Assembly: GCF_019049105.1 (NCBI RefSeq)
Contig: NZ_JAHQZR010000001.1
Coordinates: 62,001 to 126,000 of the forward strand
Length of the DNA stretch: 64,000 nucleotides
Direction of reading: 5' to 3'
Source: Leucobacter chinensis
GTDB taxonomy: Bacteria > Actinomycetota > Actinomycetes > Actinomycetales > Microbacteriaceae
The stretch's first letter is position 1. Each line of letters starts with the position of its first letter. Positions 46,701 through 54,765 of the stretch are shown here, piece by piece. The notes under the pieces were generated by a model. It searched no databases. It was given only the letters and a program-made list of their open reading frames with translations, and was not told the origin of the DNA. The position numbers and the translations under genes were made by a program.

Positions 46701-46720
46701 GTGTAGAGTGGGTTCTGCAA

Positions 46721-46808
46721 TCCACGGGAGTTCGTACGCGACGAACTGAGACTGGGCACGCGTGCTCGTACCGTTCAACCTGATCTGGGTCATGCCAGCG
46801 GAGGAAGG
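46721..46808 (+). ncRNA. TPP riboswitch (THI element)
   Basis: The plus strand shows the conserved parts in order: CACGGGAG, a small hairpin (TTCGT/ACGAA), CTGAGA, a variable stem, ACCTGATCTGGGTCATGCC, and AGCGGAGGAAGG. The 3' end GGAGGAAGGA is also the ribosome site of thiB. Binding of thiamine pyrophosphate would pair this strand in stem P1 and switch off translation of the transporter. Confidence 0.95.
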
Positions 46809-46816
46809 AATCTATT

Positions 46817-47908
46817 GTGGTGTACTCACCAAACCCTCGCGTAACACGTCACGCACTCGTCATCTCGGGCCTTGCACTCACGGGGGCGCTGCTCGTTGGC
46901 TGTTCACAGCCAGCAGACACGGGTGATGCCTCGGGTGAAAGCGGCAAAGCGGGCGATACTGTGACGCTCATCGTGCACGACAGTTTTGTGCCAGAAGAAG
47001 AGTTCGAGAAAGCTGCGAGCGAAGCGACGGGCTTTGACGTTAAGGTCATCACCGCCGGCGACGGGGGCGAACTCACGAATCAGCTGGTGCTTACGAAGGG
47101 CGAGCCACTCGCTGACGCGTTCTTTGGCGTCGATCACATCTTTGCCTCACGGCTCGTCGAACACGAGGTGACTGAGGCATACCTGCCCGAGAATCTTCCC
47201 GAGCGTGCGAAGCAATACTCGGTCACCGACGAGGGGGCGCTCACCCCGATTGATGTCGCGGCCACCTGCATCAACGTCGATACCGTCTGGTTTGATGAGG
47301 CCGGCAAGAAAGCCCCAGAGACGTATGAAGACCTCGTGAAGCCCGAATACCGTGACCTCACGGTGCTGCTCGACCCCACATCATCGTCGACCGGCGCTTC
47401 GTTCCTCATTGGAACGATCGCTCACTTCGGTGAGGAAGACTACCTCGATTACTGGTCATCGCTCGTTGACAACGGCGCCCGTGTTGAACAGGGGTGGAAT
47501 GATGCGTACTACACGCACTTCACGGGCGGTAATGCCGATGGAACCTACCCGATCGTGGTTTCGTACAGCTCATCACCCGGCTACACGTTGACCGAAGATG
47601 GCAAGGGATCAACGACGAGCGCACCGCTCGAGACCTGCTCGAGCCAGGTTGAGTACGCCGGCGTGCTCGCCGGAGCAAAGAACAGCGCGGGGGCGAAGGC
47701 CGTCATCGATTACCTGCTCTCGCCAGACTTTCAGAACACCATTGCCGAGACGATGTACGTGTACCCGATCGACGAGAACGCTCACGTTCCCGAAGAGTGG
47801 CAAGAGTTTGCTCCGTTGCCTGACGAGCCCAACGACCTCACCGCAACGCAGATTGGCGAGGGGCGCGACGGCTGGCTGAAGGCACTCAGCGAGACCATCG
47901 GTCTATGA
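46817..47908 (+). CDS. thiB: Thiamine ABC transporter, solute-binding lipoprotein
   Basis: 363 residues from a GTG directly behind the riboswitch. The signal ends LLVGCSQPA with Cys29 as the lipid site. The mature part is a type II binding protein (GDTVTLIVHDSFVPEEEFEKA in short form: LIVHDSF) with IDVAATCINVDTVWF and the YPIVVSYSSSPGY ligand-side block seen in ThiB. It captures thiamine or its phosphates outside the membrane. The stop overlaps thiP by four bases. Confidence 0.92.
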   Translation: MVYSPNPRVTRHALVISGLALTGALLVGCSQPADTGDASGESGKAGDTVTLIVHDSFVPEEEFEKAASEATGFDVKVITAGDGGELTNQLVLTKGEPLADAFFGVDHIFASRLVEHEVTEAYLPENLPERAKQYSVTDEGALTPIDVAATCINVDTVWFDEAGKKAPETYEDLVKPEYRDLTVLLDPTSSSTGASFLIGTIAHFGEEDYLDYWSSLVDNGARVEQGWNDAYYTHFTGGNADGTYPIVVSYSSSPGYTLTEDGKGSTTSAPLETCSSQVEYAGVLAGAKNSAGAKAVIDYLLSPDFQNTIAETMYVYPIDENAHVPEEWQEFAPLPDEPNDLTATQIGEGRDGWLKALSETIGL

Positions 47909-49566
47909 GGCTTTGGCGGGGAGCGCTCGGGGTCGCCGCCGCGATTCCGTTCGCGTTTCTTGCCCTGTTCTTCCTGTGGCCGGTCGCTTCGCTCGTTGCG
48001 ACCGGCCTCGGAGGGGGCATCGTGACCCCCGAGGGCGGTATCTTCAGCGTGCTCTCGAACCCGCGCACGGGGCGGGTGATCGGCCAGACGCTCGCCCAAG
48101 CGGGAGCGGGAACACTGCTCTCGGTCGTGCTCGGCTTACCCGCGGCTTTCGCGCTCTACCGCATTCGCTTTGCGGGGCAGACCGTTATTCGGGGCCTGCT
48201 CACCGTACCCTTCGTGCTGCCGACCGTCGTCGTTGGTGTTGCCTTTCAATCGCTTTTTGGGCCGGGCGGCATGCTCTTTGGGCTCGGGTTTGACCAGTCA
48301 TTCATCGCGATCGTGCTGGCGCTCGCATTCTTTAACGTCACGCTTGTCGCTCGTATCGTTGGCGGCTTCTGGCAGTCACTCGACGAACGGCCCGAGCAGG
48401 CCGCACGGATGCTTGGGGCCTCACCTTTGCGCGCCTGGGTGAGTGTGACCCTGCCAAGACTGCTGCCCGCGATCGGATCGGCAGCGGCGCTCGTCTTTCT
48501 CTTCTGTGCGACAGCATTCGGCGTCGTCCTTGTGCTGGGCGGGAAGCAATTCTCGAACATTGAGACCGAGATCTACGGTCTTACCATGCAGTTTCTCGAC
48601 TTGCAGGGAGCTGCCGTGCTCTCCCTCGTGCAGGCCGTGATCGTGATCATCACGCTCATGGTCTCGGCACGACTGCGAACGAAATACTCAGCTGGTGAGC
48701 GCCGCACCTCGGGGGCCGCGAGGCTTGAGAAAGCAGGGCGCAAGCACGCGACCGTGCTCATCGTCTTTGCCGTCACGGTGCTCACGCTGCACGTGCTCCC
48801 GATATTCTCGCTCGGGCTGCGCTCACTCAGACGCCCAGATGGGTCACTGACGTTCGACCACTACCGATTTCTTGTCGATCCGCCAGAAGAATCTCCGCTT
48901 GCCACCACGGTGCCCCAGGCACTCTGGGTGTCGGTTCGGTTTGCGCTCCTCGCGGCGCTTATCGCGATGGTACTGGGTACGCTCATCGCACTGGTGCTCT
49001 CGCGAAGGCCGCGCAGTAAGCCTGCAAAGCGGGCCCAGGGCGCCTACGAGATGTTTGTCATGATGCCGCTCGGGGTTTCGGCCGTGACCCTGGGGCTCGG
49101 GCTCTTGCTCACGATGCACAACCCACTCGGCCTCGGTATTGACTTGCGGAGTAGCACCGCGCTCATTCCGGTCGCGCAAACGCTCGTCGCCCTCCCGCTC
49201 GTCATTCGCACGATGTTGCCGGTGCTGCATTCGGTGAGCCCCAGGCAGCTCGACGCGGCGACGCTGCTCGGGGCATCGCCCGCACGCGTGTTTCGAACGA
49301 TCGAGCTGCCCGCGCTCAGCCGTGCTTTCGGGCTCTCAATCGGCTTTGCCTTTGCGACCTCGCTTGGTGAGTTTGGGGCGACTTCGTTTCTCGTGCGCAG
49401 CGGCTCAGAAACGCTTCCGGTGGTCATCTCGCAGCTCGTCTCACACCAGGCAGCCTCGAGTTACGGCACAGGGCTCGCCGCGGCAGTGGTGCTCGGTCTC
49501 GCAACGAGTGTCGTGATGCTCTTGGCCGAGGGTTGGCGTGTGACCGAACACGCGGGAGGATGGTAA
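47905..49566 (+). CDS. thiP: Thiamine ABC transporter, fused permease
   Basis: 553 residues with two permease domains joined in one chain, as in E. coli ThiP. Each half has six hydrophobic segments and an EAA loop: ERPEQAARMLGASPLRAWVSV near residue 158 and RQLDAATLLGASPARVFRTIEL near residue 443. The gene overlaps thiB and lies two bases before thiQ. Confidence 0.92.
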   Translation: MRLWRGALGVAAAIPFAFLALFFLWPVASLVATGLGGGIVTPEGGIFSVLSNPRTGRVIGQTLAQAGAGTLLSVVLGLPAAFALYRIRFAGQTVIRGLLTVPFVLPTVVVGVAFQSLFGPGGMLFGLGFDQSFIAIVLALAFFNVTLVARIVGGFWQSLDERPEQAARMLGASPLRAWVSVTLPRLLPAIGSAAALVFLFCATAFGVVLVLGGKQFSNIETEIYGLTMQFLDLQGAAVLSLVQAVIVIITLMVSARLRTKYSAGERRTSGAARLEKAGRKHATVLIVFAVTVLTLHVLPIFSLGLRSLRRPDGSLTFDHYRFLVDPPEESPLATTVPQALWVSVRFALLAALIAMVLGTLIALVLSRRPRSKPAKRAQGAYEMFVMMPLGVSAVTLGLGLLLTMHNPLGLGIDLRSSTALIPVAQTLVALPLVIRTMLPVLHSVSPRQLDAATLLGASPARVFRTIELPALSRAFGLSIGFAFATSLGEFGATSFLVRSGSETLPVVISQLVSHQAASSYGTGLAAAVVLGLATSVVMLLAEGWRVTEHAGGW

Positions 49567-51404: not shown

Positions 51405-51445
51405 ACGAGGAATGACCAACGCCTGAATGTGTGAGGAGAAACACC

Positions 51446-53110
51446 ATGGCAGTTCAGAGTAAAGACGCGTCGCTCTACGAGCATCGCGACACCATTGCGG
51501 TGCGGCGCGCGCTCATCTCGGTGAGTGACAAGAGCGGGCTCGAGGAGCTTGCACGTGGGCTCGGTGCAGCCGGCGTCGAGATTGTTTCAACCGGATCGAC
51601 GGCGCAGCTCATTCGTGATCTCGGCGTTGCCGTGACCGATGTCGCCGACGTGACCGGTTTCCAGGAGGCCCTCGACGGGCGCGTGAAGACGCTGCATCCT
51701 GCGGTGCATGCGGGTTTGCTCGCTGATCTTCGCCTTGCCGATCACCGCGAGCAGCTCAAGGCACTTGATATTGAGCCCTTTGAACTCGTGATCGTAAACC
51801 TGTACCCCTTCGACGAGACCGTTGCCGCAGGCAAGCCTGCCGCCGACATCATCGAAAACGTCGATATCGGGGGGCCTGCGATGGTTCGCGCTACCGCGAA
51901 GAACCACGCGAACACCGCAATTGTCGTTTCTCCCTCTCGATACCCGCAGGTACTCGAAGCGGTCGCCGCTGGCGGCACGGGCCTTGAGCTGCGCCGTTCG
52001 CTCGCAACCGAGGCTTTTGTGCACACGGCGCAGTACGACGCATCGGTCGCAAACTGGTTCCTCGAGCAGGAGGAGCTCGGCTGGGCTCCTGCCGATGCGA
52101 GCGAGCTTGCCGCAGACGAGGGCGACTCGATTGATCGCATTTTTGAAGATCCCGACGCCTTTGTTGGCTACGAGATCTTCGGGCTGCGTGACTCGGTGCT
52201 GCGTTACGGCGAGAACAGCCACCAGCGCGGAGCGCTCTTCACCGAGACTGAGGGCTCGGGCATCGCCCAGGCAACCCAGTTGAGCGGCAAAGAGATGTCG
52301 TACAACAACTACGTTGACGCCGATGCGGCGCTGCGCGCGGCGTTCGACCACGAGCGCCCCGCCGTCGCGATCATCAAGCACGCGAACCCCTGCGGCGTTG
52401 CCGTCGCTCCTGAATCGAGCACTTCGCCAATCGCCGATGCGCACCGACTCGCGCACGAGTGCGACCCGGTTTCGGCGTTCGGTGGGGTCATTGCGGCAAA
52501 CCGCGTCGTGACGAAAGACATGGCAGAAACCGTCTCGGCGATCTTCACCGAGGTCATCGTGGCCCCTGGCTTTGAGCCCGAGGCACTCGCGATCTTGCAG
52601 CAGAAGAAGAATCTGCGCCTGCTTGTGCTGCCAGAGAACTTCGCACAAAACCCCGTCGAGATTCGTCAGGTTTCTGGCGGCTTCTTACTGCAGGAAGCAG
52701 ACCGTCACTTCGCTCCCGCTGCCGAGTGGCAGCTCGCCGCGGGCGAACCGGCCGACCAGGCGACGCTTCTCGAGCTCGAGTTCGCATGGCGCGCTTCGCG
52801 TGCGGTGAAGTCAAACGGCATCATCCTCACGAAAGACGGCGCTTCGGTTGGCGTTGGCATGGGGCAGGTCAACCGAGTTGACTCGTGCCGCCTCGCGGTC
52901 GAGCGCGCCGGCGAAGAGCGCGCTCGTGGCGCGGTCGCCGCTTCTGACGCGTTCTTCCCGTTCGCCGACGGCCTGCAGGTGCTGCTCGATGCCGGTGTGC
53001 GCGCGGTCGTGCAGCCTGGCGGTTCGGTGCGTGACGAAGAGGTCATCGCTGCTGCGAAGGAGGCGGGCGTGACCATGTACTTCACGGGTGAGCGCCACTT
53101 CTTCCACTAG
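51446..53110 (+). CDS. purH: Bifunctional AICAR formyltransferase / IMP cyclohydrolase
   Basis: 554 residues. It carries out the last two steps of IMP synthesis. The N-terminal MGS-like cyclohydrolase domain has [20 protein letters not shown] and [21 protein letters not shown]. The C-terminal transformylase has [12 protein letters not shown]-type [26 protein letters not shown] and [10 protein letters not shown]. The ATG at 51446 has a TGAGGAGA site; a GTG five codons earlier is part of that site. A hairpin follows the stop. Confidence 0.97.
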
Positions 53111-53119
53111 GAACCCACC

Positions 53120-53160
53120 AAAGCGGCTGGCAACGCGAAAGCGCTGTTGCCAGCCGCTTT
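53120..53160 (+). terminator. Hairpin terminator after purH
   Basis: A 15-bp perfect stem (AAAGCGGCTGGCAAC and complement) with an 11-base loop, nine bases after the purH stop. The T-run is short (TTTG), so termination may be partial. Confidence 0.75.
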
Positions 53161-53171
53161 GTACTGTCACG

Positions 53172-53205
53172 GGGCGCCAGCACGGTGTCCTTCGGTGAGG
53201 CGCCC
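53172..53205 (+). other. Hairpin upstream of the permease leader
   Basis: GGGCGCC and GGCGCCC form a 7-bp stem around about 20 bases that can fold again (CAC with GTG). It lies between the purH terminator and the structured leader of the next gene. It may be part of the leader RNA or a DNA operator. Confidence 0.4.
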
Positions 53206-53232
53206 GGGTGAAGTGAGCGTGTTTGCTTGCGC

Positions 53233-53343
53233 TTCTTGCGTCGGAGGTAGAAGATAGAAAACTGTGCGGGCCTCAGAACCCGCCGGCTACACAGCGCGAA
53301 GGGGCGATGAACAAGCCCGGTCGCGATACCTCAAGCGTAAGGA
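53233..53343 (+). ncRNA. Candidate structured leader RNA (three-way junction) of the PuuP-like permease
   Basis: By hand-folding, the outer stem pairs 53233-53240 with 53336-53343 (TTCTTGCG with CGTAAGGA, including two G-U pairs), and after a small internal loop GAGGTA (53244-53249) pairs with TACCTC (53327-53332). Inside are two hairpins: CTGTG/CACAG (53262-53266 with 53290-53294) continuing into CGGG/CCCG, and CGCGA/TCGCG (53295-53299 with 53321-53325) continuing into GGGC/GCCC. The joining strand GAAGATAGAAAA is purine-rich. The last arm contains AAGGA, the ribosome site of the permease. It has the build of a translation-controlling riboswitch. I could not match it to TPP, lysine, glycine, guanidine, fluoride, ZTP or c-di-AMP classes. 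Confidence 0.55.
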
Positions 53344-53349
53344 CCATCA

Positions 53350-54765
53350 ATGCTGAAATCTGGGCCAGGGCTTGCCAAAGGCGCCACTCTCAAACGTAGT
53401 CTTGGCCTGTGGGCTATCGTGGGGCTTGGCCTCGGGTACATGACCCCAACGGTTGTTTTCGATACCTTCGGCATGGTCGCCCGCGACACGAACAACGTTG
53501 TTCCTCTCGCATACCTGGTCGCCCTGATCGTCATGATCTTCACCGCCGTGAGCTACGGCAAAATGTCGGGCGCGATTCCCAGCGCCGGCTCGGCATACAC
53601 TTACGTGCGCGAATCGATGCACCCGAACGTCGGGTTCATGGTGGGCTGGACGTCGCTGATCGACTACATGCTGCTGCCCATGGTCAACTGCCTTATCATT
53701 CGCAGCTATCTCGAGGCCATCTTCCCAGCGGTTCCGGGGTGGATCTGGGTGGTGCTGTACTGTTTGTTCGTCACCACGATCATCTACCTGACCATGCAGG
53801 GAACCTCGAACGTGAACATGATTCTGCTCGTGTTCTCGATCATCGTCATGATCGTCTTCGTCTTCATGGTCATCGTGCAGCTGCGCGGTGGTGAGGGCAT
53901 CGGCACGCTCGCGTCGGCTCAGCCCTTCTTCCACGACGGCGTCACCATGAGCGCAGTGCTCATGGGATCGACGGTCGTGTGCTTCTCGTTCATTGGCTTT
54001 GACGCTGTGACGATGTACGCCGAAGAGGCAAAAACCCCGAAGATTATGCCGCGAGCCATTCTGCTGACGGTCGTCATCGGCGGTGCGATCTTCCTCATCG
54101 CCGGCTACTTCTCGCAGCTGCGCTTTCCCGACTGGAACGTGTTCGCTCCCGGCGGCGACATGCAGTACGTCGAAGACAGCACCCTGCCGCTCATCGGCCA
54201 GGAAGTGGGCGGCAATGTGCTGCAGGCCGTGCTCACCGCCGCCGGCTTTGCTGCGACCCTCGCCTCGGGCCTGGCATCGCACGCTTCGGTATCGCGCATG
54301 CTGCTCGTCATGGGCCGCAACAACGTGCTGCCGAAGAAAGTTTTTGGGTACATCAACCCCAAGACCCACACCCCGACCTTCAACATCGTGCTCACGGGCC
54401 TCATCAGCATGCTGGCCATTGCCTTCACCCTCGAGATGATCGCTGCCTTCATTAACTACGGAGCGCTCATCGCTTTCACCGCGGTAAACCTCTCGGTCAT
54501 CGCGTGGTTTGCGGTGCGGCAGGGCCGACGCAAGACCCCGAAAGACATCTTCAAGTACATCGTCATGCCTGGTATTGGCATGGTACTCACGGGCGTGCTC
54601 TGGGCGCACCTGCACCTTGATGCACTCATCGGCGGCGTCATTTGGACGGTTCTCGGCTTCATCTACCTCCTGTACATCACCCGCTTCTTCAAGCGCAAGG
54701 TTGCTGGATTCGATGAGATTCAGCCAGTGACGGGCTACAACAAGGTTCCTATCGACACCGAATAA
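53350..54765 (+). CDS. APC-family permease, putrescine importer PuuP-like
   Basis: 471 residues with 12 hydrophobic segments. The chain follows E. coli PuuP closely: LKRSLGLWAIVGLGLGYMTP, TVVFDTFGMV, AISYGK-type AVSYGKMSGAIPSAGSAYTY, NVGFMVGWTSLIDYMLLPM, and LASGLASHASVSRMLLVMG. PuuP imports putrescine with protons. The exact substrate could be another amine or amino acid. The ATG follows TAAGGA by six bases, and that site is part of the closing stem of the leader RNA. It is a single-gene unit and a second possible polyamine uptake route beside the ABC importer at 23-27 kb. Confidence 0.85.
   Translation: MLKSGPGLAKGATLKRSLGLWAIVGLGLGYMTPTVVFDTFGMVARDTNNVVPLAYLVALIVMIFTAVSYGKMSGAIPSAGSAYTYVRESMHPNVGFMVGWTSLIDYMLLPMVNCLIIRSYLEAIFPAVPGWIWVVLYCLFVTTIIYLTMQGTSNVNMILLVFSIIVMIVFVFMVIVQLRGGEGIGTLASAQPFFHDGVTMSAVLMGSTVVCFSFIGFDAVTMYAEEAKTPKIMPRAILLTVVIGGAIFLIAGYFSQLRFPDWNVFAPGGDMQYVEDSTLPLIGQEVGGNVLQAVLTAAGFAATLASGLASHASVSRMLLVMGRNNVLPKKVFGYINPKTHTPTFNIVLTGLISMLAIAFTLEMIAAFINYGALIAFTAVNLSVIAWFAVRQGRRKTPKDIFKYIVMPGIGMVLTGVLWAHLHLDALIGGVIWTVLGFIYLLYITRFFKRKVAGFDEIQPVTGYNKVPIDTE

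Follow-up and report, generated by a model that had tools for sequence, protein, structure and literature searches.

What lies between the predicted promoter and the start codon of the permease gene in a 64,000-nucleotide stretch of Leucobacter chinensis DNA (the window), and does it act as RNA? The first-pass annotation had proposed a structured leader with a closing stem around two interrupted hairpins. The hairpins and the ribosome site were found as it had described them. Comparison with related genomes supported the two hairpins, which are common to relatives; the closing stem found no such support, as its 5' strand coincides with the spacer of a promoter.

The permease served as query to fetch 68 loci, all from named genomes and many from Leucobacter; the upstream regions of 36 were read. 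A number of the Leucobacter regions shared one layout: TTTTGCG(T/C), 17–18 bases, nAnnAT, hairpin A, hairpin B and the ribosome site. The leader was recognised at 24 loci, namely those of the window, its sister genome and 22 Leucobacter-genus genomes. TTG stood 16–18 bases before nAnnAT in 24/24 of them, compared with 6 of 57 background nAnnAT sites in 5040 positions of the same sequences, and exactly 17 bases before it in 18/24, compared with 0/57. The 24 leaders are related to each other and so do not count as 24 independent cases; the position of the -10 box in this control was taken from the structure-blind alignment A5. The -35 box of the window matches TTGACA at 3 of 6 positions, and a generic promoter scan reported no promoter, both boxes being weak against the E. 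coli consensus. Because of these two boxes, the permease transcript of the window is predicted to start near 53262 (Table 1). A purine-rich joining strand noted earlier, GAAGATAGAAAAC, is indeed present, but it begins with the -10 box. Just 5' of the -35 box, the 14 bases at 53213–53226 were the same in both sister genomes, while 16 of the 50 preceding bases differed; this block is possibly an activator site.

Table 1. Features at the permease locus, in positions of the window
Feature	Position	Strand	Detail
Long inverted repeat 3' of purH, which it probably terminates	53118..53162	+	AAAGCGGCTGGCAAC...GTTGCCAGCCGCTTT; context, outside the element
-35 box TTGCGC	53227..53232	+	TTG 16–18 bases before the -10 box in 24/24 leader loci
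Promoter spacer, 17 bases	53233..53249	+	Drawn earlier as the closing stem's 5' strand; untranscribed if the predicted start is right
-10 box GAAGAT	53250..53255	+	nAnnAT in 24/24 leaders
Predicted 5' UTR, 88 nt	53262..53349	+	Start taken as the seventh base after the -10 box
Hairpin A	53262..53286	+	GCGGG 53266–53270 / CCCGC 53279–53283, 8-nt loop, CUG/CGG at the base
Hairpin B	53295..53325	+	Outer CGCGA/UCGCG; inner GGGC 53302–53305 / GCCC 53315–53318; conserved GGRGCG on the 5' side
Ribosome site AAGGA	53339..53343	+	Six bases before ATG 53350
Permease of the APC family, probably importing polyamines	53350..54765	+	PF00324 / PF13520 matches; orthologues adjoin PotA/B/C-like genes

In the leaders compared, hairpin A begins at the predicted 5' end and is followed by a linker of 7–10 bases and hairpin B; in the window, hairpin B ends 13 nt before the ribosome site. 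The loop of hairpin A varied in length across leaders while its stem was kept. Outside the conserved GGRGCG stretch of hairpin B, the leaders showed no unpaired core with strong conservation. Pairing of loop A with the linker into a pseudoknot, inspected by eye, failed to hold across them.

We regard both hairpins, with moderate confidence, as real RNA structure, taking together pairing and covariation on a fitted alignment, minimum-energy folds and the changes between the window and its sister. In the fitted alignment A7 (23 sequences, leaving out L177, which has no model match), which was made to the model and thus favours the structure, 87.8% of the cells held standard pairs, compared with 35–52% when the partners were slid. 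A tree-aware null was made by replaying the substitutions of each branch on random columns, with 22 sequences (L153, whose permease frame is broken, was left out of the tree tests) and after a manual one-position shift of the window and sister rows in hairpin A. The covariation sum over the 17 pairs was 53.4, and no simulation came up to it in either of two null sets of 300, whose maxima were 42.9 and 33.0; pairing was 0.889, compared with null maxima of 0.70 and 0.76. A single pair was significant, one in hairpin A with E of about 0.01 among the 17 pairs tested. The covariance check on relatives' leaders proposed in the first-pass annotation thus gave covariation in sum on the fitted alignment only; with the structure-blind alignment A5, also of 23 sequences, E<0.5 was reached by no pair.

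Minimum-energy folds of the predicted transcripts contained hairpin A together with the outer part of hairpin B in 16 of 23 leaders, including the window and its sister; the other seven, which lacked one or both, were L158, L172, L174, L175, L176, L182 and L191, and this count slightly lowered our confidence in the RNA reading. The comparison of the window with its sister is independent of alignments A5 and A7. Only 4 of the 88 leader sites differed, three in the 8-nt loop of hairpin A, one after the ribosome site and none in the stems (Fisher p 0.002), compared with 16 of 50 sites at 53163–53212 and 28 of the gene's 268 fourfold sites.

Folding energy by itself is no evidence for the leader of the window, being within chance: the 110-nt fold had a z of -1.59, with 16 of 200 shuffles at least as stable, and the 161-nt fold a z of -1.23, with 20 of 200. 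Across 24 leaders the mean z of -1.78 (12 with p≤0.05) was no better than that of the controls, namely sequence preceding the promoter (-1.77, 24 sequences) and leaderless orthologues (-2.07, 11 sequences). With an alternative leader cut, which had no control, the mean z was -2.24 and 23/23 values were negative. Two leaderless Leucobacter-type orthologues, L179 and L193, carry instead one very long, near-perfect 5' hairpin (z of -6.8 and -6.9); judged by these folds, structured leaders of differing design appear to recur on the permease gene. Upstream of the permease in L045 and L056, two hairpins of like layout and other sequence (GGCGA/UCGCC and GCUGC/GCAGC) were seen by eye and missed by the model; they are possibly diverged leaders.

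The genus of the window is represented in the collection by two genomes, the window's own and its sister's, and the leader is present in both; among 60 family genomes, these two alone matched at the DNA level. A covariance model, R1, was built from ten leaders, including those of the window and its sister. Over 73 sources it found its ten leaders at 51 bits or more and next L039, at the position of its leader, at 18.8 bits, with chance-level matches from 17.0 bits down. R1 matched 23/23 given loci at E≤0.1, ten of which had built it; L177, the 24th leader, was joined by eye without a model match. In the Leucobacter genus (the genus of G204, which holds the L. chromiireducens locus L038), a close permease orthologue was found in 45 of 54 genomes, and a leader was recognised in only 22 of these 45, 21 by the model and L177 by eye. 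Reading covered the upstream sequence of 33 of these orthologues; for the remaining 12 the model search listed no hit at the permease. Two of the leaders recognised by the model, L174 and L182, are weak, scoring 18.8 and 17.3 bits, not far above chance matches of the same search at 16.6. In G047, a permease orthologue (82%) had no leader. At L153, the permease is broken by a frame change (two pieces in tblastn; 350 aa to the first stop), and its leader still matches the model.

R1 was searched over 199 relatives, G047, the 15 genomes behind the studied loci and the 54 Leucobacter-genus genomes, and a second model, R2, over 398 family genomes; filters were stricter whenever a search spanned more than 40 genomes. 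No occurrence was found before any gene but this permease among 52 checked off-permease loci, none of which had a permease within the locus. An open frame of at least 150 aa ran through the middle of 51 of the 52, which is no proof of coding in GC-rich DNA; the sole locus without one was L140 (25.5 bits).

The permease itself reached no NCBIfam cut-off, and its nearest solved relatives bear the name amino acid transporter (E of about 1e-20). A PotC-like sequence lay upstream of the permease in 21 of the 24 leader loci, though not in those of L182 and the two sister genomes; among 11 leaderless loci it was present in 5 (L185, L189, L192, L193 and L195; the upstream sequence of L179 was too short to tell). 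In the window, the upstream neighbour is a gene at 51431–53110 that we take, from its sequence, to be purH-like, and the best PotC match of the genome (81%) is on another contig. Because PotC precedes the permease in most leader loci and purH does so in the window, promoter, leader and permease have stayed together while their neighbours changed. As for the Pot assignments, the PotA-like protein of L039 passed the cut-off of the polyamine transporter family TIGR01187, and the PotB- and PotC-like proteins of L039, L041 and L033 had polyamine permeases as best matches, below the equivalog cut-offs. A frame of L207 taken for PotD matched no NCBIfam family at E≤1e-30, leaving PotD unconfirmed. Beside the cluster of L207, on the opposite strand, lies a class III aminotransferase (NF005102, above cut-off). 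An aldehyde dehydrogenase adjoins the permease in L188 and L196, both leaderless, and that of L046, identical to that of L196 over the aligned part, passed the aminobutyraldehyde dehydrogenase cut-off NF010000. Since the permease in Leucobacter mostly follows a pot-type polyamine transporter, its substrate is likely to be a polyamine, and the amine link suggested in the first-pass annotation agrees with these neighbours. In some Leucobacter loci (L039 5068–6543, and L005), the permease is followed by a frame that resembles a MocR-type regulator; it is absent beside the permease of the window.

On balance, we favour the reading that the leader is a clade-restricted cis-acting RNA of the permease mRNA, the hairpins of which are kept by selection as RNA. 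The mRNA would start at about 53262 with the tandem hairpins, A and then B, and these would most likely set the stability or the translation of the permease message, either by binding some small molecule or trans-acting factor tied to the supply of polyamines, or as a plain 5'-terminal protective structure. A post-transcriptional role is what we infer from this arrangement. The leader seems to be a modest new candidate regulatory RNA rather than an established riboswitch, and a small literature search found no published leader of this kind. A more ambitious version, in which the two 5'-terminal hairpins form a small undescribed ligand- or protein-sensing RNA class controlling polyamine uptake in Leucobacter-like Microbacteriaceae, is rather doubtful. 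Further polyamine-linked leader RNAs would be worth having, because earlier evidence for polyamine riboswitches was called unconvincing by the authors of PMC10853860. With its link to a single importer in a single clade, the leader offers a compact, testable case.

One special case of this cis-acting RNA is a ligand-binding RNA without a closing stem, in which hairpins A and B would make up the aptamer and the bases that precede the ribosome site would act as the switch. The conserved GGRGCG of hairpin B and the polyamine gene context are in keeping with it, and a covered ribosome site was predicted in some leaders, for example L171, L173, L175, L190 and L158. However, the site was open in L170, L172, L191 and the window, where the unpaired probability was 0.77–0.81 for 53340–53345 in the predicted transcript. 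Over the 24 predicted leader transcripts this probability ranged from 0.00 to 0.98, and in 23 leaders its mean was 0.48, compared with 0.54 with shuffled tails, so that pairing of the site was not significantly above that with shuffled tails (Wilcoxon p 0.09). No conserved alternative hairpin over the ribosome site was found in the leaders, and no terminator-like site was found on the + strand at 53080–53360 of the window. The ribosome site was unpaired in the 110-nt window fold; in the 161-nt fold, which includes the promoter, it was paired in part in the minimum-energy fold and entirely in the centroid. In these predictions, hiding of the ribosome site does not emerge as a feature conserved across leaders, and the site is probably mostly open in the window. 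As the element was also not found before another gene and had no Rfam match, we consider the aptamer unlikely.

Alternatively, the two inverted repeats, lying just past the transcript start, might be DNA operators, that is, repressor sites rather than RNA. Their place just downstream of the promoter and the conserved words GTCGCA and GGGGCG would suit such sites, and in L210 a palindrome resembling hairpin A, with 4 mismatches, is present before the promoter as well and is perhaps a terminator. On the other hand, the spacing of the arms varied, and their sequence varied while complementarity stayed; furthermore, when the pot region was searched in 4 Leucobacter genomes, the core of hairpin B had no match at ≤2 mismatches outside the leaders. 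RNA suits the hairpins better than an operator does because the loop of hairpin A changes in length and its stem is kept. We therefore hold operators to be quite improbable.

The riboswitch originally proposed, a three-way junction whose closing stem would mask the ribosome site in the absence of ligand, is very unlikely. The complementarity claimed for this stem does exist in the window, with a perfect GAGGUA/UACCUC complement (GAGGTA 53244–53249, TACCTC 53327–53332) next to CUUGCGU/GCGUAAG (CTTGCGT 53235–53241, GCGTAAG 53335–53341), and the sole change in it between the sister genomes, 53241 T to C, keeps the pair. Nevertheless, the stem scarcely varies between these two genomes, which therefore cannot test it, and inspection of the other leaders by eye showed no general counterpart, with partial ones in L168 and L170. 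Its 5' strand is the spacer between promoter boxes present in 24/24 leader loci. If the transcript starts near 53262, downstream of 53250 as the conserved promoter predicts, both 5' strands of the stem would be promoter DNA; such a start is the observation that the annotation itself had named as counting against its model. The closing stem is thus most likely promoter DNA and not RNA, and the correction matters: drawn by hand, the stem had looked like a ribosome switch. A leader peptide with two Cys codons at 53213–53257 had been attractive, since the stem that pairs with AAGGA shares bases with its codons, but comparison of the 24 leaders identifies these bases as promoter, and the peptide was rejected. 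A second upstream frame, opening with xTGTCGCA, was noticed by eye in several Leucobacter leaders; others carry it broken or lack it, and the window has none.

In agreement with the earlier remark that the leader lacks the hallmark motifs of familiar riboswitch classes, a search of the whole window with Rfam 15 at curated thresholds gave one TPP riboswitch and no match to the leader. At E≤10, three sub-threshold microRNA matches were obtained for 53100–53450, all on the repeat at 53109–53168 and none in the leader, and the 11 Leucobacter loci searched gave 0 matches. The potC RNA motif is likewise a putative leader RNA of polyamine transport, but it is known from marine sequence, and the present leader has no match to any Rfam family. 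The spermidine riboswitch is also a cis-acting leader RNA tied to polyamine genes; as outlined in PMC10853860, it is a SAM-I variant ending transcription before biosynthesis genes, whereas the present leader lacks an Rfam match and precedes an importer. ANTAR-target RNAs of Actinobacteria resemble the leader in having two tandem stem-loops in a 5' leader, but the account in PMC8164766 gives them two hexaloops with A1 and G4, which the present leader does not have as a pair. That the leader is the target of an ANTAR RNA-binding regulator, another special case of the cis-acting RNA that we favour, is hardly credible: two stem-loops with a 7–10 base linker do stand near the start of an amine-related gene, and each of the 18/18 genomes searched had one ANTAR match, but loops as delimited by the model were hexaloops in 3/23 leaders for hairpin A and 15/23 for hairpin B, with A1 and G4 in either in 0/23, a mismatch that is not absolute, as conservation of A1/G4 in actinobacteria is put at a little over 50% in PMC8164766. 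The TPP riboswitch of the window, at 46714–46823, scored 61.5 bits and lies ~1 kb upstream of an ABC-permease-like frame (47905–49566).
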